A DNA stretch of 35,036 bases from Deltaproteobacteria bacterium. Lineage in GTDB: Bacteria; Myxococcota; XYA12-FULL-58-9. Both the position numbers and the translations under genes were made by a program. Positions 1,413 through 23,148 of this stretch are shown piece by piece. Below the pieces are notes generated by a model. It was not told the origin of the DNA. It saw only the letters and a program-made list of their open reading frames with translations, and ran no database searches. Position 1 is the first letter of the stretch. Each line of letters starts with the position of its first letter. The stretch lies in the NCBI GenBank assembly GCA_016218825.1, contig JACRCV010000031.1:1-35036 (forward strand), given 5' to 3'.

Positions 1413-3824
1413 CTACTGCCAGTCCCCGGCCCTGATGATCACCTTCTCGGTGCCGCCGGCTTTGAGGGCCTTGGTCACGCTGTACTTCTTGCCGCTGGCG
1501 CAGGTCACCTTGATCTCGCACTTGCCGACCGGGACGTCCTTGTTGGCGAATGGCGGAGTGCCTGCATCAGTGCGGCCGACAAACACCTTGCAGTCCGCTT
1601 CGCCTACGGTCATCACCGAGAGCTTCGCTCCCGATCCACCACACTTGCCGCCGCCGCCGCCGCCGCCGCCACCGCCGCCACCTCCGCCGCCACCACCTCC
1701 CCCGCTGCGCTCCTTGGTCTTCTCCCGTGGCCGGTCGCGGCCGTGGGACGGCGTCAGGTCGTCGAGGGTCAGCTCGACCTGCGCCTCGGTCTTGCCCTCC
1801 TTGAAGCTGGCGTTGGCCTTGCTGTGCCTGAAGCCGTCCTTGGCGACCTCGATCTCGTAGGTCTTTGTCGGATCCAGGCCCTTGATCTCGAGCGGCGTGA
1901 CGCCCTGCTTCACCCGACCGAGGTACACCGTCGCGCCGCTCGGGCTCGACTTGACGTAGAGGGTGCCGGCGCCTTGGGCCCCGGGCTTGCCGCCGCCGGC
2001 GCTGTTCAAGCTCAGCCGCACCGTCGCGGTCTTCTGGTTGTTGGGAAAGGTGACGCTGCGGCTCTCGGTCTGGAAACCGTCCTTGACGATCTCCAAGATC
2101 ACCGGCCGCGACGGGTCTTGGTTCTTCAGCGTCAGCGGCGTCACCCCCTGCGGCAGCCCGCCGATGCGGACCGAGGCCCCCGGGGGATCGGTGACCACCT
2201 CGATCGTCGCGTCTGCGGTCGCCGGCGCCGCCGTGCTCCGTTCCAGCTCGACGTTGATCACCGCCGGGTTGCCGGCGACGAGCTCGAAGCGGTAGGCGCG
2301 GTCGGGATAGCCGTTGGCGCGCGCCAAGAGGATGTGCTCGCCCACCTTGACGTCGTGGCTCGACAGCGGCGTCTTGCTGCCGAGGAGGTTGCCGTCGAGG
2401 TAGATGTCGACCTGGTCGGTCGGCTGCGAGGTGATGACGACGGTGCCGACGTCGCCGGAGGGACCGGTCAACAGCACGATCAAGAGGATCAAGGCCGCCA
2501 AGAACGCCGCCACCGCGATGATGATCGCGCCGACGTGCTTCTGCTGGATGGCGCCGGCGTCGCCGCTCTCGGCGCCGGCGAGCGACGGCCGTGGTTGCAG
2601 GCTCCGCCGCGGTGAGAGCGGCATCAACGCCGAGCCGGTCCGCGCCTCATGGGCCTCGCCGCTCTTGCCGCGCGAGACGAACGAGCGCCCGCCCATGCCC
2701 TCCGGCGCGATCTCGGTGGCGATGTTGCCGTGGGCCGAGAAGCCCGATTCGAAGATCATCGTCTTCTCGCCGGAGGACGCCGCTCCCGGATCGGTCTTGA
2801 GGGGCGCGGCGCGCATCTCCGCCGCCGCGGCCACCATGTCCGGGTTGTTCGGCGCCTGCACCTTCATGAACTCTTCCATCTTCTGCATTTCGGCGTCGAT
2901 GTCGGGCTTGAACTCTTGTTGCAGAAGAACGGCGCAGCGCTTGGCGTTGTAGATCGTGTTCTCTTCGATCAGGAATTGCTGCAGGTCGTCGTGCAGCTCC
3001 GAGGTCCACTGGTAACTTTCGTCGCGCTCCTTGGCGAGCGCCTTCAGCATGATGCGCTCGAGCTCTTGCGAGACGTTGGGGTTGATCTGGCTCGGCGGCG
3101 GCACCTCGGCGTTTCGCACCTTCTCCAGGGTCGAGAAGTCGCTCTCGCCCAAGAACAGCCGCTTGCCGGTGATCATCTCGTACATCAGGATGCCGACCGC
3201 GAAGATGTCGGAGCGGTGATCGATCTCGAGGCCGCGCACCTGTTCGGGCGACATGTAGCCGAACTTGCCTTTGAGCACGCCTGCCTGGGTCTTGCTCGCC
3301 CGGTCTTCGGCCTTGGCGATGCCGAAGTCGGTGATCTTCACCGCGCCTTCGTAGCTCACCAGGATGTTCTGCGGGCTGACGTCGCGGTGGATGACGTTCA
3401 ACGGCCGGCCGGTCGGGTCGGCCTTGCGGTGCGCGTAGTCGAGGCCGTCGCAGATCTTCGAGATGATGAACGCCGAGGCCGGCAGCGGCAACAGCTCCTT
3501 CTTCTTGCGGATGTGATCGAGGATGAAGCGCAGGTCCTTGCCGGCGACGTACTCCATCGCGATGTAGTACTGGTTCTCGTACTTCCCGAGCTCGTAGATC
3601 TGGACGATGTTGGCGTGGCTGAGCTGCACCGCGATGCGGGCCTCGTCCACGAACATGTTGATGAACTCGTCGTCATCCGCCATGTTCGGCAGGATGCGCT
3701 TGATCGCCAGGATGCGCTCGAAGCCCTCTACCCCGAAGGCCTTGGCCTTGAAGACCTCGGCCATGCCGCCGACGTTCACCCGCTCCAGGAGCAGGTATTT
3801 GCCAAATGGAATAGGGTAGTTCAT
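1413..3824 (-). CDS. membrane Ser/Thr protein kinase with PEGA repeats
   Basis: This 803-residue protein has a cytoplasmic eukaryotic-like kinase domain (about residues 7-290). It carries a glycine loop (NVGGMAEV), the lysine in LAIKRIL, the catalytic loop HRDVSPQN near residue 146, DFGIAK near 166 and SPEQVRG. VSP in place of LKP in the catalytic loop is usual for myxobacterial kinases. A juxtamembrane linker leads to one membrane helix (about 428-452). Three PEGA-like beta repeats follow (about 456-530, 533-608 and 620-690), with PTDQVDIYLDG, PPGASVRIGG and PSGATVYLG cores. Next come a charged segment, 19 glycines and a fourth PEGA-like end domain. It probably senses outside signals through the PEGA region and phosphorylates cytoplasmic targets. 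It is a paralogue of the kinase at 14866. It diverges from pilT across 219 bp. I see no good ribosome site before the ATG. Confidence 0.93.
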   Translation of the reverse strand: MNYPIPFGKYLLLERVNVGGMAEVFKAKAFGVEGFERILAIKRILPNMADDDEFINMFVDEARIAVQLSHANIVQIYELGKYENQYYIAMEYVAGKDLRFILDHIRKKKELLPLPASAFIISKICDGLDYAHRKADPTGRPLNVIHRDVSPQNILVSYEGAVKITDFGIAKAEDRASKTQAGVLKGKFGYMSPEQVRGLEIDHRSDIFAVGILMYEMITGKRLFLGESDFSTLEKVRNAEVPPPSQINPNVSQELERIMLKALAKERDESYQWTSELHDDLQQFLIEENTIYNAKRCAVLLQQEFKPDIDAEMQKMEEFMKVQAPNNPDMVAAAAEMRAAPLKTDPGAASSGEKTMIFESGFSAHGNIATEIAPEGMGGRSFVSRGKSGEAHEARTGSALMPLSPRRSLQPRPSLAGAESGDAGAIQQKHVGAIIIAVAAFLAALILLIVLLTGPSGDVGTVVITSQPTDQVDIYLDGNLLGSKTPLSSHDVKVGEHILLARANGYPDRAYRFELVAGNPAVINVELERSTAAPATADATIEVVTDPPGASVRIGGLPQGVTPLTLKNQDPSRPVILEIVKDGFQTESRSVTFPNNQKTATVRLSLNSAGGGKPGAQGAGTLYVKSSPSGATVYLGRVKQGVTPLEIKGLDPTKTYEIEVAKDGFRHSKANASFKEGKTEAQVELTLDDLTPSHGRDRPREKTKERSGGGGGGGGGGGGGGGGGGGKCGGSGAKLSVMTVGEADCKVFVGRTDAGTPPFANKDVPVGKCEIKVTCASGKKYSVTKALKAGGTEKVIIRAGDWQ
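1647..1703 (-). repeat. glycine-codon trinucleotide tract inside the kinase gene
   Basis: On the plus strand the tract begins with eight consecutive GCC units and continues with GCC, ACC, TCC and CCC. Read on the minus strand these are 19 glycine codons in a row. The pure eight-unit part is prone to replication slippage, and length changes would stay in frame. It forms a flexible linker between the third and fourth PEGA-like domains. Confidence 0.9.
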
Positions 3825-4043: not shown

Positions 4044-5324
4044 ATGGAGCTGAACGACATTCTCGCGGTGGCATTGAAGGGCGGCGCGTCGGATATCCAT
4101 CTCAAGGCCGGCCTGCCGCCGATGTTCCGGGTGAACGGCGCGTTGCTGCCGCTCAAGGACGCACCACGCCTGCCGCCCGAAGACATCGCCCGTATGGCGG
4201 TGTCGATCATGAGCGACCTGCAGCGGGAGAAGTTCCAGAAGCACTCCGAGATCGACCTCGCCTACGGCGTCCCGGGGCTGGGACGCTTTCGCGTCAACGT
4301 CTTTCAGCAGCGCGGCACCACCGGCGCGGTGTTCCGCGTCATCCCGCTCAAGATCCAGACGATCGAGCAGCTCGGGCTCCCCAAGGTGCTCGAGGAGATC
4401 TCGATGGAGCCGCGCGGCCTGATCCTCGTGACCGGCACCACCGGCAGCGGCAAGTCGACGACGCTCGCGGCGATGCTCGACCACATCAACACCAACCGCA
4501 CCGCCCACATCCTCACGATCGAGGACCCCATCGAGTTTCTGGTGCGAGACAAGCGCTCGATCGTCAATCAGCGCGAGGTCGGCGTCGACACCGAGGGCTT
4601 CGCGAACGCGCTGCGCAGCGCCTTGCGCCAGGACCCCGACGTGATCCTCGTCGGCGAGATGCGCGACCTCGAGACCATCGAGATCGCGCTCACCGCCGCC
4701 GAGACCGGGCACCTGGTGATGTCGACGTTGCACACCCTCGACGCCACCGAGACCATCAACCGCATCGTCTCGGCCTTTCCGCCCCACCAGCAGAAGACCA
4801 TCCGCCTGCAGCTGGCGTCGGTGCTCAAGTCGATCGTCAGCCAGCGCCTGGTGCCGCGCGCCGACAACAAGGGCCGGGTCGCGGCGCTCGAGATCTTGCG
4901 TAACACCTCCCGGGTGCGGGAGCTCATCGAGGACATGGACCGCACCAAGGAGATCGCCGAGGCGATCCAACAAGGCCACTCGACCTACGGCATGCAGACC
5001 TTCGATCAGTCGGTGATGGCGCTGTTGTCCGGCAAGCTCATCACCTACAAGGAAGCGCTGCGCCAGGCCTCCAACCCCGACGACCTCGCGCTGCGGGTCT
5101 CGGGGATCGCCGGCACCTCGGACACCTCCTGGGACAACTTCGAGGCCACCGGTCACGGCGCCGCACCGCCCGTGGCCCCGCCGGCTCGACCGCAAGCGCC
5201 GCCGCCGCCGGCCCGACCTCAGGCGGCACCGCCCGGCGCACGGCCCGCGACGCCGGCCGCGGCACAACCGGCCGCCGCCGGCACTCGGCCCGCGGATGAC
5301 GACTTCAAGATCGAGCGCTTCTGA
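4044..5324 (+). CDS. pilT: PilT-family type IV pilus retraction ATPase
   Basis: This 426-residue cytoplasmic hexameric ATPase would power type IV pilus retraction. The N-terminal PAS-like domain begins with the family pattern ASDIHLKAG. The ATPase core has Walker A GTTGSGKST (residues 131-139), the Asp box around TIEDPIEF, Walker B ILVGEMRD and the His box LHTLDA. The usual PilT AIRNLI retraction motif is not seen: the matching stretch reads LRNTSRVRELIED, so this may be a PilT paralogue or PilU-like protein. The body ends near residue 350. It is followed by an unusual tail of about 70 residues rich in Pro and Ala, ending DDDFKIERF; ordinary PilT is about 345-370 residues. No other pil genes are in the window. 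The next gene, on the other strand, encodes a PilZ protein. Confidence 0.92.
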   Translation: MELNDILAVALKGGASDIHLKAGLPPMFRVNGALLPLKDAPRLPPEDIARMAVSIMSDLQREKFQKHSEIDLAYGVPGLGRFRVNVFQQRGTTGAVFRVIPLKIQTIEQLGLPKVLEEISMEPRGLILVTGTTGSGKSTTLAAMLDHINTNRTAHILTIEDPIEFLVRDKRSIVNQREVGVDTEGFANALRSALRQDPDVILVGEMRDLETIEIALTAAETGHLVMSTLHTLDATETINRIVSAFPPHQQKTIRLQLASVLKSIVSQRLVPRADNKGRVAALEILRNTSRVRELIEDMDRTKEIAEAIQQGHSTYGMQTFDQSVMALLSGKLITYKEALRQASNPDDLALRVSGIAGTSDTSWDNFEATGHGAAPPVAPPARPQAPPPPARPQAAPPGARPATPAAAQPAAAGTRPADDDFKIERF

Positions 5325-8096: not shown

Positions 8097-8924
8097 ATGG
8101 CCTCAATTCCGCGGATCGTCCTCCTGCTCGTGGTTTGCATCGCGCCACGCCTCGCGGTCGGCGCGCCCTTCCCGCTCACGCTCACCACGTTGCCCTTCGA
8201 CAACCCGCAGGAGGAGAGCGCGGTGTTCTCGCTGCTCGGGCGCTACCTCGCCGACGCGCTCGGGCGACCGGTGGAGTTCGTCGCCGCGAAGTCGTACGAC
8301 GAGGCGACGCGGATGCTGTCTTCCGGCAAGGCCGACGTGGCGCTGTTCGGTGCCGTGGCCTACGTCAAGGCCCGGCGCCAGGGTCAGGTGCGCGCCATCC
8401 TGCGCTCGATCCGCAACCACCGTCCGACCTACGACGGCGTCGTCATCGTCAAGCGCGGCTCAGGCATCGAGTCCCTCGCCGACCTGAAGGGTCACAGCTT
8501 TGCCTGGGTCGACCCGTTCTCCGGCGCCGGTTATCTCTATCCGCGCATCCTCCTCAAGGGCGCCGGGATCGTCCCCGACCGCGATCTGAAGGCCACCTTC
8601 GTCGGCAGTCACAAGCAAGTGGTGCAGAAGGTCGCGAGCGGCGAGGTCGACGCCGGAGCGTGCTTCGCCGGCGCCGAGGAGATGCTCACCGATCCGAGCG
8701 CCGTCGTCGCCATCGGCCGCACCGAGCCGGTGCCGGGTGAGCCGGTGGTGGTGCGCCCCGGGCTCGGGAGCGAGTTGGTGAAGAAGCTGCGCTCGGCGCT
8801 GATGGAGATGGCGACCGTCGAGGCGGCCGCGCCCTTCTTCCGCTTCGCCGAGATTGATGGCTTCGTGCCGGCGGTGGATGCCGACTACGATCGGGTCGAC
8901 GAGCTGCTCCGGCAGCTGCAGTGA
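8097..8924 (+). CDS. PhnD-like phosphate/phosphonate-type substrate-binding protein
   Basis: This 275-residue secreted binding protein begins with a signal peptide (IVLLLVVCIAPRLAVGA). The two-lobed fold is recognisable from LGRPVEFVAAKSYDEATRML, KADVALFGAVAYV, LADLKGHSFAWVDPFSGAGYLYP and the C-terminal FVGSHKQVVQKVASGEVDAG. These are features of the PhnD/PtxB-type family that binds phosphonates, phosphite or related anions. No ABC permease or ATPase gene follows. Instead the stop is 3 nt before an FHA-domain gene, so the protein may supply a signal rather than import a nutrient. The ligand cannot be predicted. A promoter ends 6 nt before the ATG. Confidence 0.88.
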   Translation: MASIPRIVLLLVVCIAPRLAVGAPFPLTLTTLPFDNPQEESAVFSLLGRYLADALGRPVEFVAAKSYDEATRMLSSGKADVALFGAVAYVKARRQGQVRAILRSIRNHRPTYDGVVIVKRGSGIESLADLKGHSFAWVDPFSGAGYLYPRILLKGAGIVPDRDLKATFVGSHKQVVQKVASGEVDAGACFAGAEEMLTDPSAVVAIGRTEPVPGEPVVVRPGLGSELVKKLRSALMEMATVEAAAPFFRFAEIDGFVPAVDADYDRVDELLRQLQ

Positions 8925-8927
8925 ACC

Positions 8928-11324
8928 ATGAGCGGACGGCGAGACAAAGCGGGGAGCGGCGCGCCCGAGCCGTCGGAGCAAGACGATCTCTCGGACACCG
9001 ACCCGTCGGCGAGCGCGCCCGAGTCGGCGGCGTCACAGAGCACGCGGCCGCTGCGGGCGGCGCCGTCGTCCACCGCGGATGCGCCGCGGCACGACGCTCC
9101 GATGGTGGACGACGCCTGGTCGACGAGCAACCCCGAGATCGAGGGTGACGCCGCGCCGGTCGAACACACCTACATCGAGCCGACCCCGGCCGCCACCGAC
9201 CGAACCGGCCAGGACGCGCCACGGCTGGCGAAGGATGCGGTCGCCGGCGTTCGCAGCGACAGCCAGCCCGGGTTCGACGTCTCCGCCGAGGTGTTGAACC
9301 CGGTGGCGGTCGCCGAGGCGCCGGTCGCGGATCTGGACGGCATCGGCCCGGCGTTCCCCGACCCTGAAGAAGCGGGCCCGGTGGTCGTTCGGAGAGACGT
9401 CGACGGTGCCGGCGGTGATGCGCGGCCGGCTCCGGCGCGGGCGAGCGAGGTGCCGACCTCGGCGCGCCCCGGGCTCGAGTCGGTCGCCGACGCCGCGATG
9501 GCCCGCGCCCAGAACGCCGGTCGGCTGGCGGCGGACGACGGCTGGGCCGACTTCAAGGACGGCAGCGGCGGCTGGAAGAGCCTGTCGGGCGAGAGCCAGC
9601 TGGCGCCCAAGCCCAAGGCGCTGAGCGGCCCGCAGTACACCCGCCGTGACACCAACGTCTACAAGCTCGGCAAGGCGGTGAAGGCGGAGGAAGGGGCGCG
9701 GCTGGTGGGCACTGCGGGCAAAGACACCGGCCGCGAGTTCGCGATCAGCGAGCGCGAGATCGCGATCGGTCGCGGACCGAGCAACGCGGTCGTCCTCGGC
9801 GACAGCTCGGTGTCGCGCGAGCACGCCCGCCTGCTGCACGAGGGCGACAACTACATCCTCGTCGATCTCCGCTCCGCCAACGGCACCTTCGTCAACGGCC
9901 AACGGGTGGACCGCGCGCGGTTGCGCAGCGGCGACGAGGTCGGCTTCGGGAGCTCGCGCTTCCGTTTCCTCGAGATCGGCGACGTCTTCAAGCCGGTGGA
10001 CGCGAGCGGCGCTCCGGTGTTGCCGGGCGCCAAGGCCGGCGTCTGGCTGCAGCTGCGGCAGAGCCCGCACTTCAGGAGCGTGCTGGTGAGCGCCCTGATC
10101 TTGGCGTTCACCCTGATCGTCACCGCGGTGATCCTGGTGGTGCGCGCCAACAGCTCCGGCGGCCGCCCGCGGCGCGACACTATCTTTCGCTACTATCTCC
10201 AGGGGGTCGAGGCCTTCAAGCGGCGCCAGTGGAGCGACGCCGAGGCGCAGTTCAAGATCATCGTCGGGCTGGATCCGAGCCACGCGCGCGGCCAGCAGTA
10301 CCTCCAGGAGTTGGCGCGCGAGAAGGAGCTGGCGCTGCAGCTGCAGGCGGCGCGGACCAGCGTTCAGGCGGGTGACCTCGCCCAGGGGTACGCGCAGGCG
10401 TCGGGGATCACCGACTCGGTTTACACCCCGGAGGCGGCCGAGCTGTTGCGGGGCGTCGACGCCGAGCTCGACCTGCGGGTGTCGCGGGCGAAGGGCGCGC
10501 TCGAAACGTCGCAGCCGGCCGTGGCGTTGAAGCTCCTGGACGGCGTCGAGAGTGTCCGGCCGGGCCGGCCGGACGTCGCGGCGCTCAGGGATCGGGCGCG
10601 CGCCGCGACCGGCGCGCCGGCGGCACCGGCGCCGAGCCCCGACAAGCCCGAGCCGGCCGGGCGACGCACCGGCGGCCGGACGGTCGACGACGACAATCGG
10701 GGGGCGGCCAAAGAGGCCGACGCCGGCGATGATGAGCCCGCGTCGCCGAAGCGGCAGGGCTTCGGCTCCGGGGTTACCGCGCGGGCGACGGCGGCGTTCG
10801 CGTCGGGCGACCCGGCGCTGGCGATGCGGATCCTGGAGGCGGCGGCCGACAACCGCGACGTCCAGGTGTTGAAGAACAAGATCCTGCGCTTTCAGAAGGT
10901 GTACGACGGCGCCAAAGAGGAGCACCGCGCCAAGCGCGCCGACGCGGCGATCAAAGAGCTCAAGCAGGCCAAGGCCTTCGAGGCCAAGATCACCGGCGGC
11001 GACTCCGACCTCGTCGAGGAGATCGATCGCAAGATCGCCGACATGTACTACGTCCAGGGAATGGCGAGCTATCTGGCCGGCCGCTATCCGGACGCCTACC
11101 GCGAGCTGAAGACCGCGTTGTCGTTCGACAGCGGCCACCGGCCGTCGCAGAAGAAGCTCGACGATCTGGCCGACAAGGCCAAGGAGATCTTCGACGACGG
11201 CGCCCGGGCGCAGGCGTCGGACGTCGCCAAGGCCAAAGAGCGCTTCCGGTTGGTGTTGCAGATCGTGTCGCCGGCCACCGACACCTACCGGAAGGCCAGG
11301 GAACGGCTCGACGCGTTGCCGTGA
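8928..11324 (+). CDS. FHA-domain, single-pass membrane protein with TPR-like C-terminal region
   Basis: The 798-residue product begins with a long acidic, Ala/Pro-rich disordered region (residues 1 to about 240). An FHA domain (about 258-350) carries the phosphothreonine-binding signatures GRGPSNAV, SREHARLL and NGTFVNGQ. A membrane helix follows at about 384-406 (ALILAFTLIVTAVILVV). The rest is alpha-helical with TPR-like pairs (FRYYLQGVEAFKRRQWSDA, YYVQGMASYLAGRYPDAYR) split by a low-complexity segment near 560-610. It probably recruits a phosphorylated partner at the membrane while the TPR part binds another protein on the far side. Its start is 3 nt after the binding-protein stop. The Ser/Thr kinase at 14866 is a plausible source of the phosphosignal, by inference. 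Confidence 0.9.
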   Translation: MSGRRDKAGSGAPEPSEQDDLSDTDPSASAPESAASQSTRPLRAAPSSTADAPRHDAPMVDDAWSTSNPEIEGDAAPVEHTYIEPTPAATDRTGQDAPRLAKDAVAGVRSDSQPGFDVSAEVLNPVAVAEAPVADLDGIGPAFPDPEEAGPVVVRRDVDGAGGDARPAPARASEVPTSARPGLESVADAAMARAQNAGRLAADDGWADFKDGSGGWKSLSGESQLAPKPKALSGPQYTRRDTNVYKLGKAVKAEEGARLVGTAGKDTGREFAISEREIAIGRGPSNAVVLGDSSVSREHARLLHEGDNYILVDLRSANGTFVNGQRVDRARLRSGDEVGFGSSRFRFLEIGDVFKPVDASGAPVLPGAKAGVWLQLRQSPHFRSVLVSALILAFTLIVTAVILVVRANSSGGRPRRDTIFRYYLQGVEAFKRRQWSDAEAQFKIIVGLDPSHARGQQYLQELAREKELALQLQAARTSVQAGDLAQGYAQASGITDSVYTPEAAELLRGVDAELDLRVSRAKGALETSQPAVALKLLDGVESVRPGRPDVAALRDRARAATGAPAAPAPSPDKPEPAGRRTGGRTVDDDNRGAAKEADAGDDEPASPKRQGFGSGVTARATAAFASGDPALAMRILEAAADNRDVQVLKNKILRFQKVYDGAKEEHRAKRADAAIKELKQAKAFEAKITGGDSDLVEEIDRKIADMYYVQGMASYLAGRYPDAYRELKTALSFDSGHRPSQKKLDDLADKAKEIFDDGARAQASDVAKAKERFRLVLQIVSPATDTYRKARERLDALP

Positions 11325-11344
11325 CACCACGCCCATGTTAGCGT
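11316..11344 (+). promoter_or_regulatory. internal promoter of the sigma-factor gene, overlapping the FHA gene end
   Basis: TTGCCG (11316-11321) and TAGCGT (11339-11344) are 17 bp apart, with a TG one base before the -10. The -10 ends 7 nt before the ATG at 11352, again giving an almost leaderless message. The same TAGCGT hexamer precedes the aminopeptidase gene at 33409. Confidence 0.42.
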
Positions 11345-11351
11345 CGCCGCG

Positions 11352-11963
11352 ATGGCGCCGACTGATCAGACGGCCCCGGCGGCGACCGACCAGGACCTGC
11401 TGAGCGTCGCCCGGCGGGGTGACTACGCCGCGTTCGAAGAGATCGTCCGGCGCTATCAGGACCGCGTCTATCGGCTCGGGCTCGGGATGACGAGTCAGCC
11501 CGCCGAGGCCGAAGAGGTGGTCCAAGATACCTTCCTGAGCATCTTCCGCGGCCTCGCCAGTTTTCGCGGCGACGCCAGCCTGTCGAGCTGGATCTTTCGC
11601 GTCGCGGCCAACGCCTCGCTGATGGTGCTCCGGCGGCAACGCCGCAAGCCGCACCTGTCGCTAGAAGACACCCGGCCCGACTACGCCGACGATGGCGGCG
11701 GCAGGGTGCGGATGCCGGGCGCCTGGGTCGGCGAGCCCGACGAGATGATCCTGAGCGGCGAGCTCAAGGGGCTCATCGAGGCCGCGATCACCGGGTTGCC
11801 GGAGAAGTATCGCCTGGTGCTGCTGCTCAAGGACGTCGAGGGTCTGTCGAACGACGAGGTCGCACAGACGCTCGGTCTCACCGTACCGACCGTCAAGGCC
11901 CGCCTGCACCGCTCCCGTCTCATTGTGCGCGAGCAGCTCGATGATTATTTCAACAAGCGCTGA
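11352..11963 (+). CDS. ECF-family RNA polymerase sigma factor
   Basis: This 203-residue RpoE-like sigma-70 factor has region 2 at about 25-98: RRYQDRVYRLGLGM, then AEEVVQDTFLSIFRGLASF and SSWIFRVAANASL. Region 4 at about 140-195 has LPEKYRLVLLLKDVEGLSNDE and the helix-turn-helix VPTVKARLHRSR. Such factors redirect RNA polymerase to stress or envelope regulons. A small zinc-type anti-sigma gene follows after 56 nt, the usual pairing. There is no ribosome site; a promoter-like pair ends 7 nt before the ATG. Its target promoters are unknown. Confidence 0.95.
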   Translation: MAPTDQTAPAATDQDLLSVARRGDYAAFEEIVRRYQDRVYRLGLGMTSQPAEAEEVVQDTFLSIFRGLASFRGDASLSSWIFRVAANASLMVLRRQRRKPHLSLEDTRPDYADDGGGRVRMPGAWVGEPDEMILSGELKGLIEAAITGLPEKYRLVLLLKDVEGLSNDEVAQTLGLTVPTVKARLHRSRLIVREQLDDYFNKR

Positions 11964-12019
11964 CTCGCGGCCGGCACAAGGGAGGCCGCGGGGGACAGCG
12001 TGAGGGGATAGGGCTCAGG

Positions 12020-12307
12020 ATGGCAATCGGCGCGAGCGGATCGACGGGGCACAGCTGTCGCGATGCAGCGGATGCGCTCTTTGGCTTCTTGGATCGCTCG
12101 CTCTGCCCCGAGGTGCGAGACGAGGTGCGGGTCCACTTCGAGCGCTGCCCACCCTGCGTCCATCTTCTCGACAGCTACCGCAAGACCATCTCGCTGTGTC
12201 GCCGGGCGCTCTCTGCGCCGGTGCCGCCGGAGACCCGGGGGCGGCTCGCGACGCGACTGCGCCAGATGACCGCCAACGTGCCCGGAAGCCGCAGCAAAAG
12301 CGGTTGA
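12020..12307 (+). CDS. small zinc-binding anti-sigma factor
   Basis: The 95-residue soluble protein has the zinc anti-sigma pattern: His11/Cys13 near the start, then His39-x3-Cys43-x2-Cys46 (HFERCPPC), followed by a helix (LLDSYRKTISLCRRAL). It has no membrane helix. Position after the ECF sigma gene on the same strand makes it the likely partner that binds and silences that factor. As a soluble zinc protein it may respond to redox or zinc state, as in ZAS-type anti-sigma factors; this is inferred from the motif only. The remaining 35 residues are basic and unstructured. A perfect TTGACA overlaps its stop codon and may drive the next gene. Confidence 0.85.
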   Translation: MAIGASGSTGHSCRDAADALFGFLDRSLCPEVRDEVRVHFERCPPCVHLLDSYRKTISLCRRALSAPVPPETRGRLATRLRQMTANVPGSRSKSG

Positions 12308-12333
12308 CAGCGCCGGCCTCTGGCGTCGAGAAT
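12304..12333 (+). promoter_or_regulatory. promoter of the HAMP-type receptor gene
   Basis: A perfect TTGACA (12304-12309) overlaps the TGA of the anti-sigma gene. GAGAAT (12328-12333) lies 18 bp downstream. Predicted transcription starts near 12340, giving a leader of about 33 nt before the ATG at 12373. Confidence 0.45.
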
Positions 12334-12372
12334 CCCGCCGTCGGCGCCACTCGGCCCGCGATTACGAGACCT

Positions 12373-14739
12373 ATGCTGCCACGATTGATCGCCATTCCTT
12401 TGAGCGCTCTGCTCCTCGCTGGCGTCGGCCGGTTCGTTCTGAAGGGCGTCGCCGCGCAGGGCGGCCGAGCGTTGGAGGCGACCCGGGAGCTGGTCAAGGC
12501 CGGCGCGGCCCAGATCGAGTTTGATCTCCACCAACAGGGGAGAGAGCTGTCGACCGACGCCGAGCGCTTCGCCGGCGACCAGGCGCTCGCCGCCGATCTG
12601 AAGGGCCTCGCCGCGGTGCTGGCCATCAGCCCGCCGTCCGGCAAGGTTCCGGAGCGGCTGCGGGCGCGAATCGAGGCCCTGAAGAACAAGCTCTTGGAGC
12701 AGGTCGCGGTCCTCAAAGAGCAGAAGCCGCACCTGGCCGCGGTCACCGTGGTCGACGGCGACGGCGTGGTGTTGCTCTCCGATTCGAGCATCTTCAAGAT
12801 CGGGGATCGCCTCGCGGCGCCCAAGGCCGAAGAGGAAGAGGAGGCGACCGCGGTGGAGGGCGGCGACGTCGATCGGCCCGCGGACGGGACCGCGACCGCG
12901 CCGCCGCCGAGCCCGCCGAAGCCGGTCGGCAAGGGCGGCTTCGTGCTGACGGCGCTCGACGACGAGGTCCAGCAGGTCACCGCGGTCGAGGCCGGCCACG
13001 TGGTCTGGTACGGAGCAGCCCCGGTGGCGTTGCGAGGCACCACGGTGGGCGCCGTCATCCTCGAGGCCAAGCTCACGAGTCTGCCGCGGGTGACCGGCAC
13101 CGACGCGCTGTTGGCCGTCGGCGACACCGTGACGCTGGGCAAGGCGCCGAAGGGCTTCGAGCTCGCGGCGCTCGGCGACACCGATCAACCGCACCTGCTC
13201 GTCGAGCATCGAGTGCTGGCGAAGGTCCCGGGCCTGGGCGAGGTCGGTGCCGGGCCGTGGTATACCGAGCCGGCGACCATCGGCGTCTGGGCGGCACGCT
13301 TCGGCGTGCCCGGGGCGGCGGGCGTCCGCGGCCTGGTCTTCACCGACGTCACCGCCTTCTACAGTGAGCTGGCGAGCTTCCAGGTGTTGGTGCTGGTGTT
13401 CCTGGTCCTGTTGTTCGTGGTCCAGGTGCTGGCGCTGTCGTTTGTCGATTTTCCGCTGCGCCGCGGCGTGGAGCGGATCGCCGACTTTCTCGGGCGCATC
13501 AATCAAGGGAAGGGCGACGAACGCCAGCTGCCGGACCGCGCCTGGCCGCGGTCGCTTTCGCGGCTGGTCTTGCTGCTCAACAAGACCCTATTGCGAACCG
13601 CGGGCGCCGGCGTGGTCGCGTCGCTGCCGCGCTCCCCCACCTTGGACGACGTGCTCCAAGCGCATCGCAGCGAACCGGCGCCGGACGTCTCGGACTTCGA
13701 GTTCCGGGGCATCTCGGACGCCGGCTCTCTGGGGATCGGTCTGCAGCCGGGGTCGGCGGCTCCGGTCGCCACCGCGACGCCGGCCAAGAGCGCGCGACCA
13801 CCGGCGTCCCCGGAGCCCGAGGCGGCGACGTTGGGGACCCAGGCCCCGGACGATCGGCGCGCCACCGACGAGATGCCGGCGGTGACGGCGCCCGACGTGG
13901 CGTCTGCGGCCGCCGCCGAGGCCGGGCTCGAGGACCTCGTCGAGGCCGAGCCGATGCCTGCCGACCTGAACGAGGCGCCGGCCCCCGAGCCCGTGGGCCC
14001 GGTAACCGCGGACGTCCCGGCATTCGTCGGGCCGGGGGCGCCGGTCGCTGCGGCCGCCCCGGTGCTGGACAAGGTGCCCGCGGTCACCGCCGCGGTGAGC
14101 GCGGTGCTGTCGGATGCCGACTTCGCGCCGCAGCCGCCGGCGGCCGAGGCCGCGGTGCAGGCGCCGGCCGGGCGTGGGGCGCAGCTCGGAGACCTGCTCG
14201 ACGAGTTCGCCACCGACGCGACGACGATGATGCAGCTGTCGCCGCAGCTGATGGCGGCGATGCGCGAGATGGCCAGCCCCGCAGCGGCGGCGAGCCCGAA
14301 TGCTTCCTCGGCCGCGGCCGGCGCTGTGGCGGCGAGCGGCGGTGACGAAGCGTTGGCGGCGCTCGCCAACGAGATGGCGGCGGCGAACGCGCCGGACGTG
14401 CGGCCGGCCCCGCCCCCGGCGACCGCGCCGACGTTTGATGCCGGGAAGACCAACGTGATGCCGCTGGCGATGGCGAAGGAGCTGGCGGCGAGGGTCGCGG
14501 CCGATGGGGCGGCGCCGGCCGCGCCGGCAACCGCCCATTATCGCGAGGTTTTCCAGGAGTTCGTCGAGACCCGCAAGAAATGCGGCGAGAACGCGACCGA
14601 TCTGACCTTCGAGAAGTTCGTCGCCAAGCTCGACAAGAGCAAAGAGGCGGTGATCGCCAAGCATCAGTGCAGCGACGTGCGGTTCCAGGTGTACGTGAAG
14701 GACGGCAAGGCGGCCCTGAAGGCGCTGCCGGCGCGTTAG
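12373..14739 (+). CDS. membrane receptor with HAMP-like linker and MXAN_5187-type C-terminal domain
   Basis: The ATG at 12373 is chosen because it begins a membrane helix (LPRLIAIPLSALLLAGVG). Upstream in-frame codons read as low-quality sequence overlapping the anti-sigma gene. The product has 788 residues. An extracytoplasmic region (about 25-335) contains a Cache-like stretch (HLAAVTVVDGDGVVLLSD). A second helix (about 335-358) leads into a HAMP-like linker (DFPLRRGVERIADFLGRIN). Residues about 405-720 are Ala/Pro/Glu-rich and disordered. The last 65 residues (FQEFVETRKKCGENATDLTF, then KHQCSDVRFQVYVKDGKAAL) resemble the C-terminal domain of Myxococcus MXAN_5187-like proteins, from memory of that family. 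There is no kinase, cyclase or methyl-accepting output, so signalling must go through partners. The kinase gene follows after 126 nt. Confidence 0.78.
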   Translation: MLPRLIAIPLSALLLAGVGRFVLKGVAAQGGRALEATRELVKAGAAQIEFDLHQQGRELSTDAERFAGDQALAADLKGLAAVLAISPPSGKVPERLRARIEALKNKLLEQVAVLKEQKPHLAAVTVVDGDGVVLLSDSSIFKIGDRLAAPKAEEEEEATAVEGGDVDRPADGTATAPPPSPPKPVGKGGFVLTALDDEVQQVTAVEAGHVVWYGAAPVALRGTTVGAVILEAKLTSLPRVTGTDALLAVGDTVTLGKAPKGFELAALGDTDQPHLLVEHRVLAKVPGLGEVGAGPWYTEPATIGVWAARFGVPGAAGVRGLVFTDVTAFYSELASFQVLVLVFLVLLFVVQVLALSFVDFPLRRGVERIADFLGRINQGKGDERQLPDRAWPRSLSRLVLLLNKTLLRTAGAGVVASLPRSPTLDDVLQAHRSEPAPDVSDFEFRGISDAGSLGIGLQPGSAAPVATATPAKSARPPASPEPEAATLGTQAPDDRRATDEMPAVTAPDVASAAAAEAGLEDLVEAEPMPADLNEAPAPEPVGPVTADVPAFVGPGAPVAAAAPVLDKVPAVTAAVSAVLSDADFAPQPPAAEAAVQAPAGRGAQLGDLLDEFATDATTMMQLSPQLMAAMREMASPAAAASPNASSAAAGAVAASGGDEALAALANEMAAANAPDVRPAPPPATAPTFDAGKTNVMPLAMAKELAARVAADGAAPAAPATAHYREVFQEFVETRKKCGENATDLTFEKFVAKLDKSKEAVIAKHQCSDVRFQVYVKDGKAALKALPAR

Positions 14740-14778
14740 GCGCGCTCGACGCCGCGAGACTGACACCGAACGCATCCC

Positions 14779-14807
14779 TTGAGCGTGCCGGAGCGCGCGT
14801 GTACGCT
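14779..14807 (+). promoter_or_regulatory. promoter of the second Ser/Thr kinase gene
   Basis: TTGAGC (14779-14784), 17 bp, then TACGCT (14802-14807) preceded directly by TG. Transcription would start near 14814, about 52 nt before the ATG. Confidence 0.42.
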
Positions 14808-14865
14808 TGAGGACGGCGTGCGGCGCCAGGCTCATTCGTGAGCACCGGCCGCGCGCGGACGAACG

Positions 14866-16878
14866 ATGTCTTACAGCCACTTCCCCGTGCGTTTCGGCAA
14901 GTACATCTTGCTGGACCGGATCAACTCCGGCGGCATGGCCGAGGTGTATCGCGCGAAGGTGACCGGCGCCGAGAGCTTCGAGCGCCTGGTGGCCATCAAG
15001 TGCATGTTGCCGCAGCTCAACGAGGACCAGCAGTTCACGACGATGTTCATCGACGAGGCGAAGCTGGCGTCGCAGCTGTCGCACGCCAACATCGTCCAAA
15101 TCTACGAGCTCGGCCGGATCAACGACAACCTCTACATCGCGATGGAGCTGGTGAACGGCCGCGATCTGCGCCACATCATCAAGCGCCTGAACAGCACCAA
15201 GACCGCGATGCCCATCGGCTTCGCGTCCTATGTGATTCACCGGGCCGCGGAGGGGCTCGACTTCGCGCACCGCAAGATCGGCGTCAACGGCCAGCCGTTG
15301 AACCTGGTGCATCGCGACGTCAGCCCGCAGAACATCCTGGTGAGCTACGACGGCGAGGTGAAGGTCGTCGACTTCGGCATCGCCAAGGCCGCGGTGCGCG
15401 ACACCGAAACCCGCGCCGGCGTGCTCAAGGGCAAGTTCGCCTACATGGCGCCGGAGCAGGTCACCGGGGGCGCCATCGACCGGCGGGCGGACATCTTTGC
15501 CCTCGGCGCGGTGTTCTACGAGCTGTTGACCGGCAAGAAGCTGTTTCACGGCGAGAGCGACTTCTCCATCCTCGAGAAGGTGCGCTCGGCGAAGGCGCCG
15601 AACATGGCCGAGCTCTATCCGGGGCTCCCGGCCGAGGTCGACGCCGCGCTCAGGTCGGCGCTCGCCCCCGACGTCGGCACCCGCTTCGCGTGGGCCTCGG
15701 ACTTCGCCGAGGCGCTGGCGCCGCTGTTGATCGACAACCGCAACATCTTCGGCGCCAAGCAGGCCAAGGAGTTCATGCACGCCCTGTGCGCCGATGACAT
15801 CGACTTGTTGGGCGAGCAGCTGCGCCGCTATTCGGCGATCAGCGAAGACGACTGCGACGAGTCCAGCGAGCAGAAGCGCAAACCGCGCAGCTCGCAGATC
15901 TTCGAGACCCGCCTGGAAGCGATCGAGGTCGGGGCCGACGTGATCGCCGACGGCACCGACGTCGGCGGCGGCGAGCAAAAGACGAGCGTCTCGGGGACCC
16001 ACGAGCGCTCTCGATCTCACCCGGACGCGCGCCTTGTGGCCGCGACCGCGGACGGCGCCGGCGCCGAGGCGGCGTCCGGATGGACCGGGGTTGGCCCGGC
16101 TGCAGCCTTTGGTCTCGAGCTCTCGGACGCCACCGGGATGATGCCGGAGAGCGTGCGGCGGCCGCTGTCGCCGGAGGTCGGCGCGACCGCGATCGGGATC
16201 CCCCTGCGGCCGCAACCGTACGCCGAGATGCGCTCGGGATCATTCTCCGCGTCCCGCAGCCAAGCCGCCAGGAATGATCTGTCCTCGAATCGTGGCATGC
16301 TGACCGCGCTCGTCGTCGTGATCCTGCTGACCACCATGGTGGTCGTCGCGATCGTGGTGTCGAATCGGAGCTCGCGGCCGAGCGCCCGCGCTACCGCGGT
16401 CACCGAAGTGCCGCTCGCCATCGAGCAGGTCGCGGCGACGTCAAGGCCTCCTCCGGCGACGACCGTCAGCGCGCCGGCGACCCCTCCCGCCGCGCCCGCG
16501 CCCGCCCCGACGCCGGTCGAGGCCGCCGCGTCGGCCCCGACTCCGGTGGCCGCGACCGAAGGCGCGGTCGGTGACGCCGAGGACGACGACACGAGCGACG
16601 ACGGTGGTCACAAGAACGTCAAGAACAAGGGCACCACGAGCGCCAAGCACGGCTACGTCACCGTCAAGGCCAACGGGGTCAAGGCGGCGCGGGTGTACGT
16701 CAACGGCAAGGAAGCCGGCTACTCACCAGTGGTGTTCTACAAGGTGAAGCTGGGCAACAACAGCATCAAGATCGTCGAGGACGTCGACGGCGAGGCAGGG
16801 CGCGTGAAGGTGCTCGACGTCGTCGTGGTGCCGAGCCACACCCGCAAGGACCCCTTGAAGCTCGTCGTGTCGATGTAA
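14866..16878 (+). CDS. membrane Ser/Thr protein kinase with C-terminal PEGA-like domain
   Basis: This 670-residue kinase is a paralogue of the one at 1413-3824: both begin with FGKY(I/L)LL(D/E)R and share the HRDVSPQN loop. The catalytic domain (about 8-290) shows NSGGMAEVYRAK, VAIKCMLP, HRDVSPQN near residue 148, DFGIAKA near 168, APEQVTG and RRADIFALGAVFYELLTGK. A long linker leads to one membrane helix at about 477-497 (LVVVILLTTMVVVAIVV). A Pro/Ala-rich stalk and a single PEGA-like beta domain (about 600-668; ARVYVNGKEAG) follow outside the membrane. It closes the sigma/FHA cluster and is the only kinase there, so it is the natural candidate to phosphorylate the FHA protein's partner or the sigma/anti-sigma pair. 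Confidence 0.93.
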   Translation: MSYSHFPVRFGKYILLDRINSGGMAEVYRAKVTGAESFERLVAIKCMLPQLNEDQQFTTMFIDEAKLASQLSHANIVQIYELGRINDNLYIAMELVNGRDLRHIIKRLNSTKTAMPIGFASYVIHRAAEGLDFAHRKIGVNGQPLNLVHRDVSPQNILVSYDGEVKVVDFGIAKAAVRDTETRAGVLKGKFAYMAPEQVTGGAIDRRADIFALGAVFYELLTGKKLFHGESDFSILEKVRSAKAPNMAELYPGLPAEVDAALRSALAPDVGTRFAWASDFAEALAPLLIDNRNIFGAKQAKEFMHALCADDIDLLGEQLRRYSAISEDDCDESSEQKRKPRSSQIFETRLEAIEVGADVIADGTDVGGGEQKTSVSGTHERSRSHPDARLVAATADGAGAEAASGWTGVGPAAAFGLELSDATGMMPESVRRPLSPEVGATAIGIPLRPQPYAEMRSGSFSASRSQAARNDLSSNRGMLTALVVVILLTTMVVVAIVVSNRSSRPSARATAVTEVPLAIEQVAATSRPPPATTVSAPATPPAAPAPAPTPVEAAASAPTPVAATEGAVGDAEDDDTSDDGGHKNVKNKGTTSAKHGYVTVKANGVKAARVYVNGKEAGYSPVVFYKVKLGNNSIKIVEDVDGEAGRVKVLDVVVVPSHTRKDPLKLVVSM

Positions 16879-16992: not shown

Positions 16993-17268
16993 CTACAGCG
17001 AGTGCTTCAGGGTCATCGCCGGACGGAAGCCGACGGTCTTCGAGGCCTTGATCTTGATGGCCTCGCCGGTCTGCGGGTTCCGGCCCTTGCGAGCCTTGCG
17101 GTTCCGCACCACGAAGGTGCCGAAGCCGGGGTAAGCGAAGCGGTGCTCTTTCTTGATCGACAGCGCGACGTTGTCGAACATGCCGTCGACGAGATCGCCG
17201 AGCAGCTTCTTGGTCACTTGGCCGTTCCACTTGGTGTAGAGCTTCTCTACCAGCTCAGCCTTCGTCAT
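16993..17268 (-). CDS. hup: HU-family nucleoid DNA-binding protein
   Basis: The 91-residue product is a full-length HU/IHF-type protein. It starts MTKAELVEKLY and has the dimer-forming helices (LLGDLVDGMFDNVALSIKKE), then the FAYPGFGTFVVRNRKARKGRNP DNA-binding arm region, split here by GF and RN turns. It ends with the family pattern FRPAMTLKHSL. It packs and bends DNA as a homodimer. The ATG at 17268 is chosen over an upstream extension because GGAAGAGGG lies just before it and the N-terminus then matches the family exactly. It ends at the bidirectional terminator shared with the kinase gene. Confidence 0.97.
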   Translation of the reverse strand: MTKAELVEKLYTKWNGQVTKKLLGDLVDGMFDNVALSIKKEHRFAYPGFGTFVVRNRKARKGRNPQTGEAIKIKASKTVGFRPAMTLKHSL

Positions 17269-21553: not shown

Positions 21554-22234
21554 GTGCGGTCAAAGCTCGTGCGACAAGACCCGCCGACGACGCTGAAGGA
21601 GCTCGAGGTGCGGGCGGCGGCCCTCGCCGGGCACACGGTGTTGGCGCTGGCGGACGCGCTCGGCGTCGAGGTGCCGCGCGAGTCGCGGCGCGCCAAGGGC
21701 TTCGTCGGCCAGCTGGCGGAGGCGGCGCTGGGGGCGGCCGCGAACGCCGGCGACGGACCGGATTTCCCGGCGCTGCAGGTGGAGCTGAAGACGATCCCGC
21801 TGCTCGCGAGCGGCCGGCCGCGCGAGTCGACGTTCTGCTGCTCGATCCAGATGGCGCGCTCCGATCGCGAGGAGTGGCGGAGCTCCCGCTTGCGCCGCCG
21901 GCTGCAGCAGGTGCTGTGGTTGCCGGTCATCGGCGGTCGCGGCACCGCGGTCGCCCTGCGCCGTTTTGGCCGCGCGACGCTGTGGCGGCCGACCCCGGTT
22001 GAGGAGCAGCTGTTGTGCGCCGATTGGGAGGACCTGATGGGGCGGATCGCGGCGGGTCGGGTCCCCTCGGCGCACCACGGCGTCGCGCTGCAAGTGCGTC
22101 CGAAGGCGCCCACGCGCGACGCTCGGAGCCTCGCGCCGGGGGATGACGGCCCCCGGCTGACGTTGCCGCTCGGGTTCTACCTCCGGGCGTCGTTCACCGC
22201 GACCATCCTCCGAGCGGCGCCGACGTCCGATTGA
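21554..22234 (+). CDS. mutH: MutH-type DNA mismatch repair endonuclease
   Basis: This 226-residue protein matches MutH along its length. The nuclease residues fall at the same numbers as in the E. coli enzyme: Glu56, Asp70, Glu77 and Lys79, in GPDFPALQVELKT. The C-terminal part has EEQLLCADWEDLMGRI, LQVRPKA and LPLGFYLRASFTATIL, all typical. MutH nicks the unmethylated strand at hemimethylated GATC during mismatch repair. It is best known from Gammaproteobacteria with Dam methylation, so its presence here is unusual. No dam, mutS or mutL lies in the window. The start is GTG, with an AGGGCAGG purine stretch just upstream. It diverges from the lipoprotein operon. Confidence 0.93.
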   Translation: MRSKLVRQDPPTTLKELEVRAAALAGHTVLALADALGVEVPRESRRAKGFVGQLAEAALGAAANAGDGPDFPALQVELKTIPLLASGRPRESTFCCSIQMARSDREEWRSSRLRRRLQQVLWLPVIGGRGTAVALRRFGRATLWRPTPVEEQLLCADWEDLMGRIAAGRVPSAHHGVALQVRPKAPTRDARSLAPGDDGPRLTLPLGFYLRASFTATILRAAPTSD

Positions 22235-22296: not shown

Positions 22297-22325
22297 TTGC
22301 AGTTGTCGATGCCGCTCGGTACCCT
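22297..22325 (+). promoter_or_regulatory. promoter of the PilZ-receiver gene, leaderless
   Basis: TTGCAG (22297-22302), 17 bp and TACCCT (22320-22325) end 7 nt before a GTG at 22333. The -35 overlaps an earlier in-frame TTG codon, which argues against that codon being the start. Confidence 0.45.
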
Positions 22326-22332
22326 GGGGGCT

Positions 22333-23148
22333 GTGGGTGGTCGTCCGGGGGACGAGCCGCCCAAAGGGCGCGACGCGGTGGACCTCGACGATACGCGAGC
22401 CCAGGAAAAGCGCCGCTATGCGCGCTATCCCTACACGCTGTGCGTTCGCTGTCAGCCGGCGCCGCCGGTGAACGCCGACTGGACCGAGAACCTGTCGCTG
22501 GGCGGGGCGTTCGTGCGCACCGACCAGCCGCTTTGCGCCGGGCAGCAGGTCGTCGCGACGGTGTCGTTCCCCGGGCTCCTCGAGCCGATGAACGTCCCGG
22601 CGCGCGTCGCCTGGGTACGGTCGCTGGATGCGATGACCGGCGGTGGGGTCGGCGTCGAGTTCGTCGACAGCCAGCCGGCGGCCCGGCTCAAGAGTCTCTT
22701 GGACGACAGCGGGGCCCCTAACGCCGGCGTCGAGGCCGAGCCGTTTCGGTTGTTGGTCGCCGAGGACAACGCTCGCCTCGCCGCGACCTACGAGCGCCTG
22801 GTGGACCAACTGCCGACGGTGCGCGCCGCCGGGATCTCCGCCCGCTTTGCCACCGACGGTCGCCAAGCCCTCGACCTGATCGAGGCGCAGGGCGTCGACA
22901 TGGTCATCACCGACATCTATATGCCGGTGATGGACGGCTACGAGCTGATTCGGCGGTTGCGCGCCGATCTCGCGACCAGTCGCATCCCGATCATGGTCGT
23001 CACCGGCGGCCGGGGCGACGAGCGCAAGAAGGTCGAGGACCTCGGGGCCGACGCGTTCTCGTTCAAGCCGATGTTCTTCGGTCGCCTCCTCGAGACCATC
23101 GCGCGCCTGGTGCAGTTTCGCCGCCGCGAAGTCAACGTGCTCCAGTAG
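22333..23148 (+). CDS. PilZ domain fused to a response-regulator receiver
   Basis: The 271-residue product has an N-terminal PilZ domain (about 20-120) with RRYARYPY and NLSLGGAFVRT, the two c-di-GMP-binding motifs. A receiver domain (about 140-265) follows, with an acidic pair in LVAEDN, the phospho-acceptor Asp in VITDIYMPVMDG, Thr in MVVTGG and Lys in FSFKPM. No output domain follows, so it probably joins c-di-GMP and phosphorelay inputs and acts on a partner. No histidine kinase is adjacent. The frame is open from TTG 22297 and has an ATG at 22309. The GTG at 22333 is preferred because a promoter-like pair ends 7 nt before it. There is no ribosome site at any of the three. Confidence 0.9.
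   Translation: MGGRPGDEPPKGRDAVDLDDTRAQEKRRYARYPYTLCVRCQPAPPVNADWTENLSLGGAFVRTDQPLCAGQQVVATVSFPGLLEPMNVPARVAWVRSLDAMTGGGVGVEFVDSQPAARLKSLLDDSGAPNAGVEAEPFRLLVAEDNARLAATYERLVDQLPTVRAAGISARFATDGRQALDLIEAQGVDMVITDIYMPVMDGYELIRRLRADLATSRIPIMVVTGGRGDERKKVEDLGADAFSFKPMFFGRLLETIARLVQFRRREVNVLQ

Follow-up and report, generated by a model that had tools for sequence, protein, structure and literature searches.

In several lineages of the Myxococcota, the gene of a membrane FHA protein stands directly upstream of an ECF sigma factor gene and the gene of a small soluble anti-sigma factor, and this conserved neighbourhood suggests that protein phosphorylation controls the sigma switch. The window, i.e. 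the stretch of 35,036 nucleotides that was analysed, comprises the initial 35 kb of contig 2 in a Myxococcota genome of 6.5 Mb (G000), which belongs to an uncultured order. Genes were called with a codon-based script; the six plus-strand, co-directional genes that the first-pass annotation had placed within 8097-16878 are all present (Table 1), with a plus-strand GC3 of 0.86-0.92 in the scored reading frames (the short anti-sigma gene was left out). The first four genes are separated by 3, 27 and 56 nt, respectively. All six had been read as a single envelope pathway. The link of the FHA, ECF and anti-sigma genes (module A) withstands comparison, whereas the receptor and kinase genes constitute a second, looser module (module B) that is separable from the first, the PhnD-like gene belongs to the cluster in one genus only and the anti-sigma factor is cytoplasmic.

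Table 1. Features of the window and of related loci; positions without a locus prefix refer to the window
Feature	Length	Position	Strand	Match or remark
PhnD-like periplasmic binding protein	275 aa	8097..8924	+	PF12974, E 3.7e-62
Membrane FHA protein	798 aa	8928..11324	+	PF00498, E 2.2e-20
ECF sigma factor	203 aa	11352..11963	+	sigma2 + sigma4
Soluble class I anti-sigma domain	95 aa	12020..12307	+	PF13490, 28.9 bits
Promoter-like element before receptor gene		12304..12333	+	TTGACA-N18-GAGAAT
MXAN_5187-family receptor	788 aa	12373..14739	+	NF041621, 90.7 bits
MXAN_5187 C-terminal domain	70 aa	about 14527-14736		within receptor gene
Hanks-type Ser/Thr kinase	670 aa	14866..16878	+	PF00069, E 2.7e-39
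Hsp70 gene		11-1276		cut by contig start
Second kinase		1413-3824	-	three PEGA stretches
PilT/PilU-type ATPase gene		4044-5324	+	
HU		16993-17268	-	
Protein of 800 aa	800 aa	19083-21563	-	no Pfam match
MutH		21554-22234	+	
PilZ-response regulator		22297-23148	+	
Anti-sigma ortholog, same operon		L044:7214-7456		no HxxxCxxC zinc site
Anti-sigma ortholog, same operon		L045:7903-8151		no HxxxCxxC zinc site
FHA-ECF run of G168 (f25)		L125:9347-16096		two membrane FHA genes in tandem, followed by ECF and anti-sigma
ECF-receptor run of G013 (f11)		L054:9971-15129		co-directional

Within the order, gene arrangement was compared across eight genomes, all of them draft assemblies, and relatives were grouped by family codes (f numbers). 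The ECF ortholog is the top match in all six genomes of the order that have one (202-438 bits, the next match reaching at most 130). Since the kinase and FHA families are large (about 58 kinase and 37 FHA matches, beside 27 ECF matches, in the window genome), orthology was based on best matches together with synteny. Six genomes carry both orthologs, and in five of them (G000, G193, G189, G190 and G191) the FHA gene immediately precedes the ECF gene, at a spacing of 27-170 nt or touching; the sole exception is G194, where the two are on different contigs. The anti-sigma gene comes after the ECF gene in G000, G193, G190, G191 and G194, while the contig of G189 ends at that point, and the receptor gene then follows in G000, G193 and G191 and, after a glycosyltransferase gene, in G190. 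None of the 26 other ECF matches of G000 lies within 5 kb of any FHA match listed. The first-pass annotation would have been refuted if relatives did not keep these genes together; this does not apply to FHA-ECF-anti-sigma, nor to most of the remainder within the order, so that the functional link, which had been drawn from a single gene order, is supported by more than one genome.

In the phylum at large, 121 of 195 genomes have an ECF match with E below 1e-38. At 46 such loci outside the window, the ECF gene is nearly always followed by that of a soluble four-ligand anti-sigma factor of 76-105 aa, a few loci yielding none or only a chance pattern. A membrane FHA gene directly upstream of the orthologous ECF gene was found in f21 (G159-G161), f25 (G167, G168) and f31 (G184-G187), the two genes often overlapping or nearly so across lineages. 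In most members of the phylum (f9, f11, f14, f16, f17, f19, f20 and f22) the ECF-anti-sigma pair lacks the FHA gene, which is thus not obligatory. When presence of FHA was mapped on the ECF tree, five changes sufficed, compared with 12.3 in shuffles (0 of 500 shuffles were as low), and at least three changes are forced by well-supported branches, so that more than one gain or loss of the FHA link took place. With about 30 FHA genes among ~5,600 genes, a co-directional FHA gene upstream would be expected by chance at an estimated ~0.3%; given this expectation and four lineages, the recurrence is presumably not accidental. A contig search with a segment of the FHA protein returned only four loci, all in genomes already compared, and in the open-access literature searched no report of an FHA gene adjoining an ECF/anti-sigma pair was found. 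The genes on the other side of the pair vary: in f19, f21 and f22 the anti-sigma gene is often followed by that of a radical-SAM protein, RlmN-like by reading (f19: L122-L124, L141, L143), and an RNase R-like gene adjoins the pair or lies near it in f14 (L108-L112, L115) and f16. The neighbours in f19 and f14 hint at a regulon related to RNA or the ribosome.

The FHA domain (about residues 279-341) lies in the predicted cytoplasmic N-terminal part of the window protein, and its canonical pThr-binding residues (GR / SxxH / NG) appear intact in the sequence. Hydropathy places one transmembrane helix at residues 387-405 and predicts the C-terminal part to be periplasmic. Of the "FHA-TPR" membrane protein annotated initially, the FHA domain and the membrane helix are thus borne out; TPRs are not matched by Pfam in the window protein and were found in distant equivalents only, namely in the scanned f25 and f21 proteins, whereas those of f31 show nothing past the helix. 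A single transmembrane helix is likewise indicated for three relatives in the order and for all upstream FHA proteins of f21, f25 and f31 (the hydropathy check left out G193 and G189), and Pfam detects the FHA domain in one member of each of these three families. What the FHA proteins have in common across families is only this domain and the one helix. The window protein also matches the Yop-YscD cytoplasmic domain, as would be expected if it served an envelope machine as a scaffold in the membrane, with the adjacent ECF pair regulating that machine only. Such a scaffold could be accommodated with the FHA-ECF run of G168, which has two FHA genes and follows genes of the Flp/Tad pilus (T2SSF-type and RcpC/CpaB), and with the glycosyltransferase 2 gene found between anti-sigma and receptor genes in G190 and G013; yet the window FHA gene has neither pilus nor secretion genes as direct neighbours, and the FHA proteins share so little beyond domain and helix, TPR or not, that we regard a scaffold role as improbable.

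The sigma factor and its partner have the features of a regular ECF/anti-sigma pair, as annotated at first. The ECF protein belongs to the ECF class (group 4): PF04542 and PF08281 span its 203 aa, sigma1 and sigma3 are absent, and SigW and RpoE are the nearest solved chains. Its acidic AEAEEVVQD motif is intact, and A53-E54-E55-V56-x-Q58 is invariant among four aligned orthologs of the order. An autoregulatory ECF promoter (GAAC...GTC) was found upstream of none of 51 gene starts, where 2.3 were expected. The anti-sigma factor carries the ligand pattern C13...H39-x3-C43-x2-C46, intact in the window, and no transmembrane helix in its 95 aa by hydropathy; it is in this sense a soluble protein of RsrA type. 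Because it has no membrane helix, it is beyond the direct reach of a periplasmic event, which contradicts the notion that envelope sensing acts on the anti-sigma factor itself.

One of the closest known systems is Streptomyces SigR-RsrA, whose soluble anti-sigma factor has the same C/H-x3-C-x2-C pattern; RsrA (5frf) is the only PDB match of the window protein (E 0.004). The window protein differs in that it stays below the cut-off of the RsrA equivalog family TIGR03988 (42.3 versus 62.5 bits), has FHA and kinase neighbours and belongs to a family that lost the ligands in two orthologous operons. According to surveys, soluble zinc anti-sigma factors are often redox sensors (PMC7406223; PMC8999054), whereas mixed zinc and non-zinc groups exist and the zinc can be structural (PMC7406223). 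A redox switch in which oxidation or zinc loss at C13/H39/C43/C46 frees the ECF factor, with FHA protein, receptor and kinase uninvolved, would fit the four-ligand pattern, which is present as in RsrA in G000, G193, G194 and almost all orthologs of the phylum, FHA-less ones included. All zinc-site cysteines are, however, gone from the anti-sigma factors of G191 and of G190 (the latter retaining a single His), although both genomes keep the FHA-ECF-anti-sigma operon. Zinc or thiol sensing is hence not the conserved mechanism there, and this loss weakens the case for RsrA-type sensing also in the window genome, where the ligands are intact; on balance a redox switch seems rather unlikely. The two operons amount to a natural experiment on whether the zinc of the anti-sigma factor is sensory or structural.

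A control by phosphorylation could operate in the following manner: The sigma factor would be held by the small soluble anti-sigma factor, with the membrane-tethered FHA protein as third component of module A. A Hanks kinase may phosphorylate a threonine on the anti-sigma factor, on the sigma factor or on itself; binding of the phosphothreonine by the FHA domain at the membrane would then shift the sigma/anti-sigma balance towards free sigma. Candidate targets of the FHA domain are the kinase itself, the sigma linker and the anti-sigma tails. A conserved threonine of the anti-sigma factor (Y-x-x-T) was considered as target and discarded, since lineages lacking FHA retain it, whereas the FHA-bearing f21 and f31 have lost it. 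Module B, comprising a tandem-CACHE receptor and the transmembrane kinase, would supply an envelope or solute input, with the conserved C-terminal domain of the receptor possibly relaying the state of that protein. Observed are the parts with their hydropathy-based topology, how they are conserved and adjoin one another, and FHA-binding and kinase motifs that are intact; each phosphorylation and binding step, and the direction of the effect, we infer. That module B feeds module A, and that its kinase is the one, out of about 58 kinase matches in the genome, that serves module A, is presumed likewise. In favour of the scheme are the recurrent FHA-ECF adjacency with its clustering on the ECF tree, the nearness of the best kinase match, the CACHE-type fold of the receptor and a mycobacterial precedent; against it count the many ECF-anti-sigma pairs that lack FHA, the different contigs in G194, the anti-sigma threonine that does not follow FHA, the break between receptor and kinase genes in G193 and the negative search for an autoregulatory ECF promoter. 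We tentatively prefer this two-module scheme, in which the FHA protein reads the kinase phosphorylation and sigma is freed, while putting its chances somewhat below even.

Three known systems resemble parts of this scheme: (i) in Mycobacterium tuberculosis, PknB phosphorylates the soluble anti-sigma factor RseA, whereby SigE is freed (PMC11173970; PMC8999054), and ClpC1P2 degrades RseA once its T39 is phosphorylated (PMC11173970). SigE-RseA-PknB (and SigH-RshA-PknB) shares with the window an ECF sigma factor, a soluble zinc anti-sigma factor and input from a transmembrane Hanks kinase, and by this analogy would be the closest working precedent, although its published scheme has neither an FHA protein nor a CACHE receptor and phosphorylation is only presumed here; (ii) ECF43 factors (EcfP-PknT, EcfK-PknS) are also encoded near a transmembrane Hanks kinase. 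In these, uncharged or Thr residues replace the acidic sigma2.2 motif and direct phosphorylation activates sigma (PMC13147305; PMC8999054), a mode ruled out for the window, whose ECF factor keeps the acidic motif and is followed by an anti-sigma gene; (iii) CACHE chemoreceptors and kinases (DctB, Mlp24, PctA, McpB) have the periplasmic sensor fold and two transmembrane helices of the window receptor, which differs in having no kinase, cyclase or chemotaxis output and a MXAN_5187 C-terminal domain instead. A more far-reaching formulation, which we consider doubtful, is that the FHA protein is the third, phosphothreonine-reading part of an ECF/soluble anti-sigma switch in several Myxococcota lineages, that FHA capture, rather than proteolysis, redox chemistry or direct phosphorylation of sigma, turns the kinase signal into transcription, and that it replaced an ancestral zinc sensor in one branch. 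If true, a phospho-reader would be added to the known modes of ECF sigma control, and the kinase-rich Myxococcota would gain a concrete, testable route from kinase to transcription.

The receptor of module B reaches the NF041621 C-terminal domain family far above its cut-off of 30 bits, and falls short of the full-length family NF041620 (141.4 versus 200), its sensor half being divergent. Of 195 Myxococcota genomes, 189 encode the domain, mostly in two proteins each, while none of the 14 control genomes does; in the open-access literature searched, no paper on MXAN_5187 was found. The protein is laid out as TM1, a tandem-CACHE-like periplasmic sensor, TM2, a helical linker, a low-complexity stretch and the 70-aa C-terminal domain. 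In an AlphaFold model (7 sequences, mean pLDDT 73.6), TM1 continues into a long helix, followed by a two-part PAS-like sensor (pLDDT mostly 75-93, except for the loop 150-186), TM2 and two short helices. The modelled sensor superimposes on DctB (Z 14.7, rmsd 5.4, 218 residues aligned), on the CitA PAS domain (Z 15.5 over 120 residues) and on Tlp3 (Z 11.9); thus, as modelled, the receptor has the two PAS-like periplasmic subdomains after a long helix that define a tandem CACHE (dCACHE), while Pfam returned no dCache match. It had been annotated as a HAMP receptor without classical output. The two hydrophobic helices are there and the model has two helices after TM2 (361-378 and 394-411, pLDDT about 60-75), but a Pfam HAMP match is absent; a kinase, cyclase or chemotaxis output is indeed lacking, and the protein ends in the MXAN_5187 domain instead. 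This domain is modelled as two helices and two strands (pLDDT 81.8). No convincing solved relative was found: Foldseek gave no match below E 1, and VIA was the best (Z 3.7), which does not exclude a relative.

The kinase has the Lys, HRD and DFG of Hanks kinases (motifs VAIK, HRDVSPQN and DFG), one transmembrane helix (480-498) and a C-terminal part predicted to be periplasmic. The "transmembrane PEGA-type kinase" of the first-pass annotation holds for kinase and helix, whereas PEGA in the C-terminal part scores 18.6 bits and remains below the cut-off of 20.8. Promoter-like elements had been noted for several genes; one, TTGACA-N17/18-GAGAATCCCGCC, which precedes the receptor gene, is kept in both G000 and G193 (alignment with L039; one found, 0.3 expected). 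A promoter-like site conserved in two genomes of the same genus is consistent with module B being transcribed separately. In G000, G194, G188, G190 and G191, the best kinase match of the genome is no farther than about 6 kb from the receptor or the FHA-ECF genes; in G193 a response regulator gene, not a kinase gene, directly follows the receptor gene, and in G185 a kinase gene comes after FHA-ECF-anti-sigma. Outside the order, one locus joins the two modules in part: in G013 the genes run ECF, anti-sigma, glycosyltransferase 2, small protein and MXAN_5187 protein, which ties module A to the receptor there too, while the remaining loci examined beyond the order showed no receptor gene near the ECF gene. 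The phylum-wide C-terminal domain thereby gains a defined context of CACHE sensor, kinase and glycosyltransferase. Glycosyltransferase 2 precedes the MXAN_5187 gene in L042, L044 and L057 too, and is near it in L071.

The two modules may also be unrelated and kept close merely by slow rearrangement. The kinase with HU, MutH, the PilZ-response regulator and the 800-aa protein forms a neighbourhood that is conserved in G193 and, without an HU call, in G194; HU and MutH are near the kinase gene in G188 and G192 as well. That module B moves with HU, MutH and the PilZ-response regulator, and that the modules are apart in G194 and their joining is not seen in G189, would be natural for chromosomal neighbours. 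Drift can, however, hardly explain FHA-ECF adjacency in four distant lineages, an argument that is weaker for the adjacency of module A to module B. As an account of the whole cluster, mere neighbourhood appears unlikely, and we retain the two-module scheme as the working reading.

The PhnD-like gene is an accessory. It had been described as encoding a binder without transporter partners, 3 nt from the FHA gene, and the genome indeed has no true PhnE permease (best match 27.1 bits versus a cut-off of 216.7), so that membership in a PhnCDE phosphonate ABC transporter is rejected. As a lasting member of the cluster it is not sustained: an ortholog at the same position exists only in G193 of the same genus (L039, 61% identity), and the other genomes of the order have PhnD-like paralogs only, at 27-34% identity and elsewhere in the genome. 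G000 encodes six PhnD-like proteins, in the window and at five other places, which probably act as sensors or belong to other systems.

At the start of the window, the Hsp70 gene lacks its N-terminal part. The second kinase gene diverges from the PilT/PilU-type ATPase gene, and this divergent pair is also found in G189 (L102).
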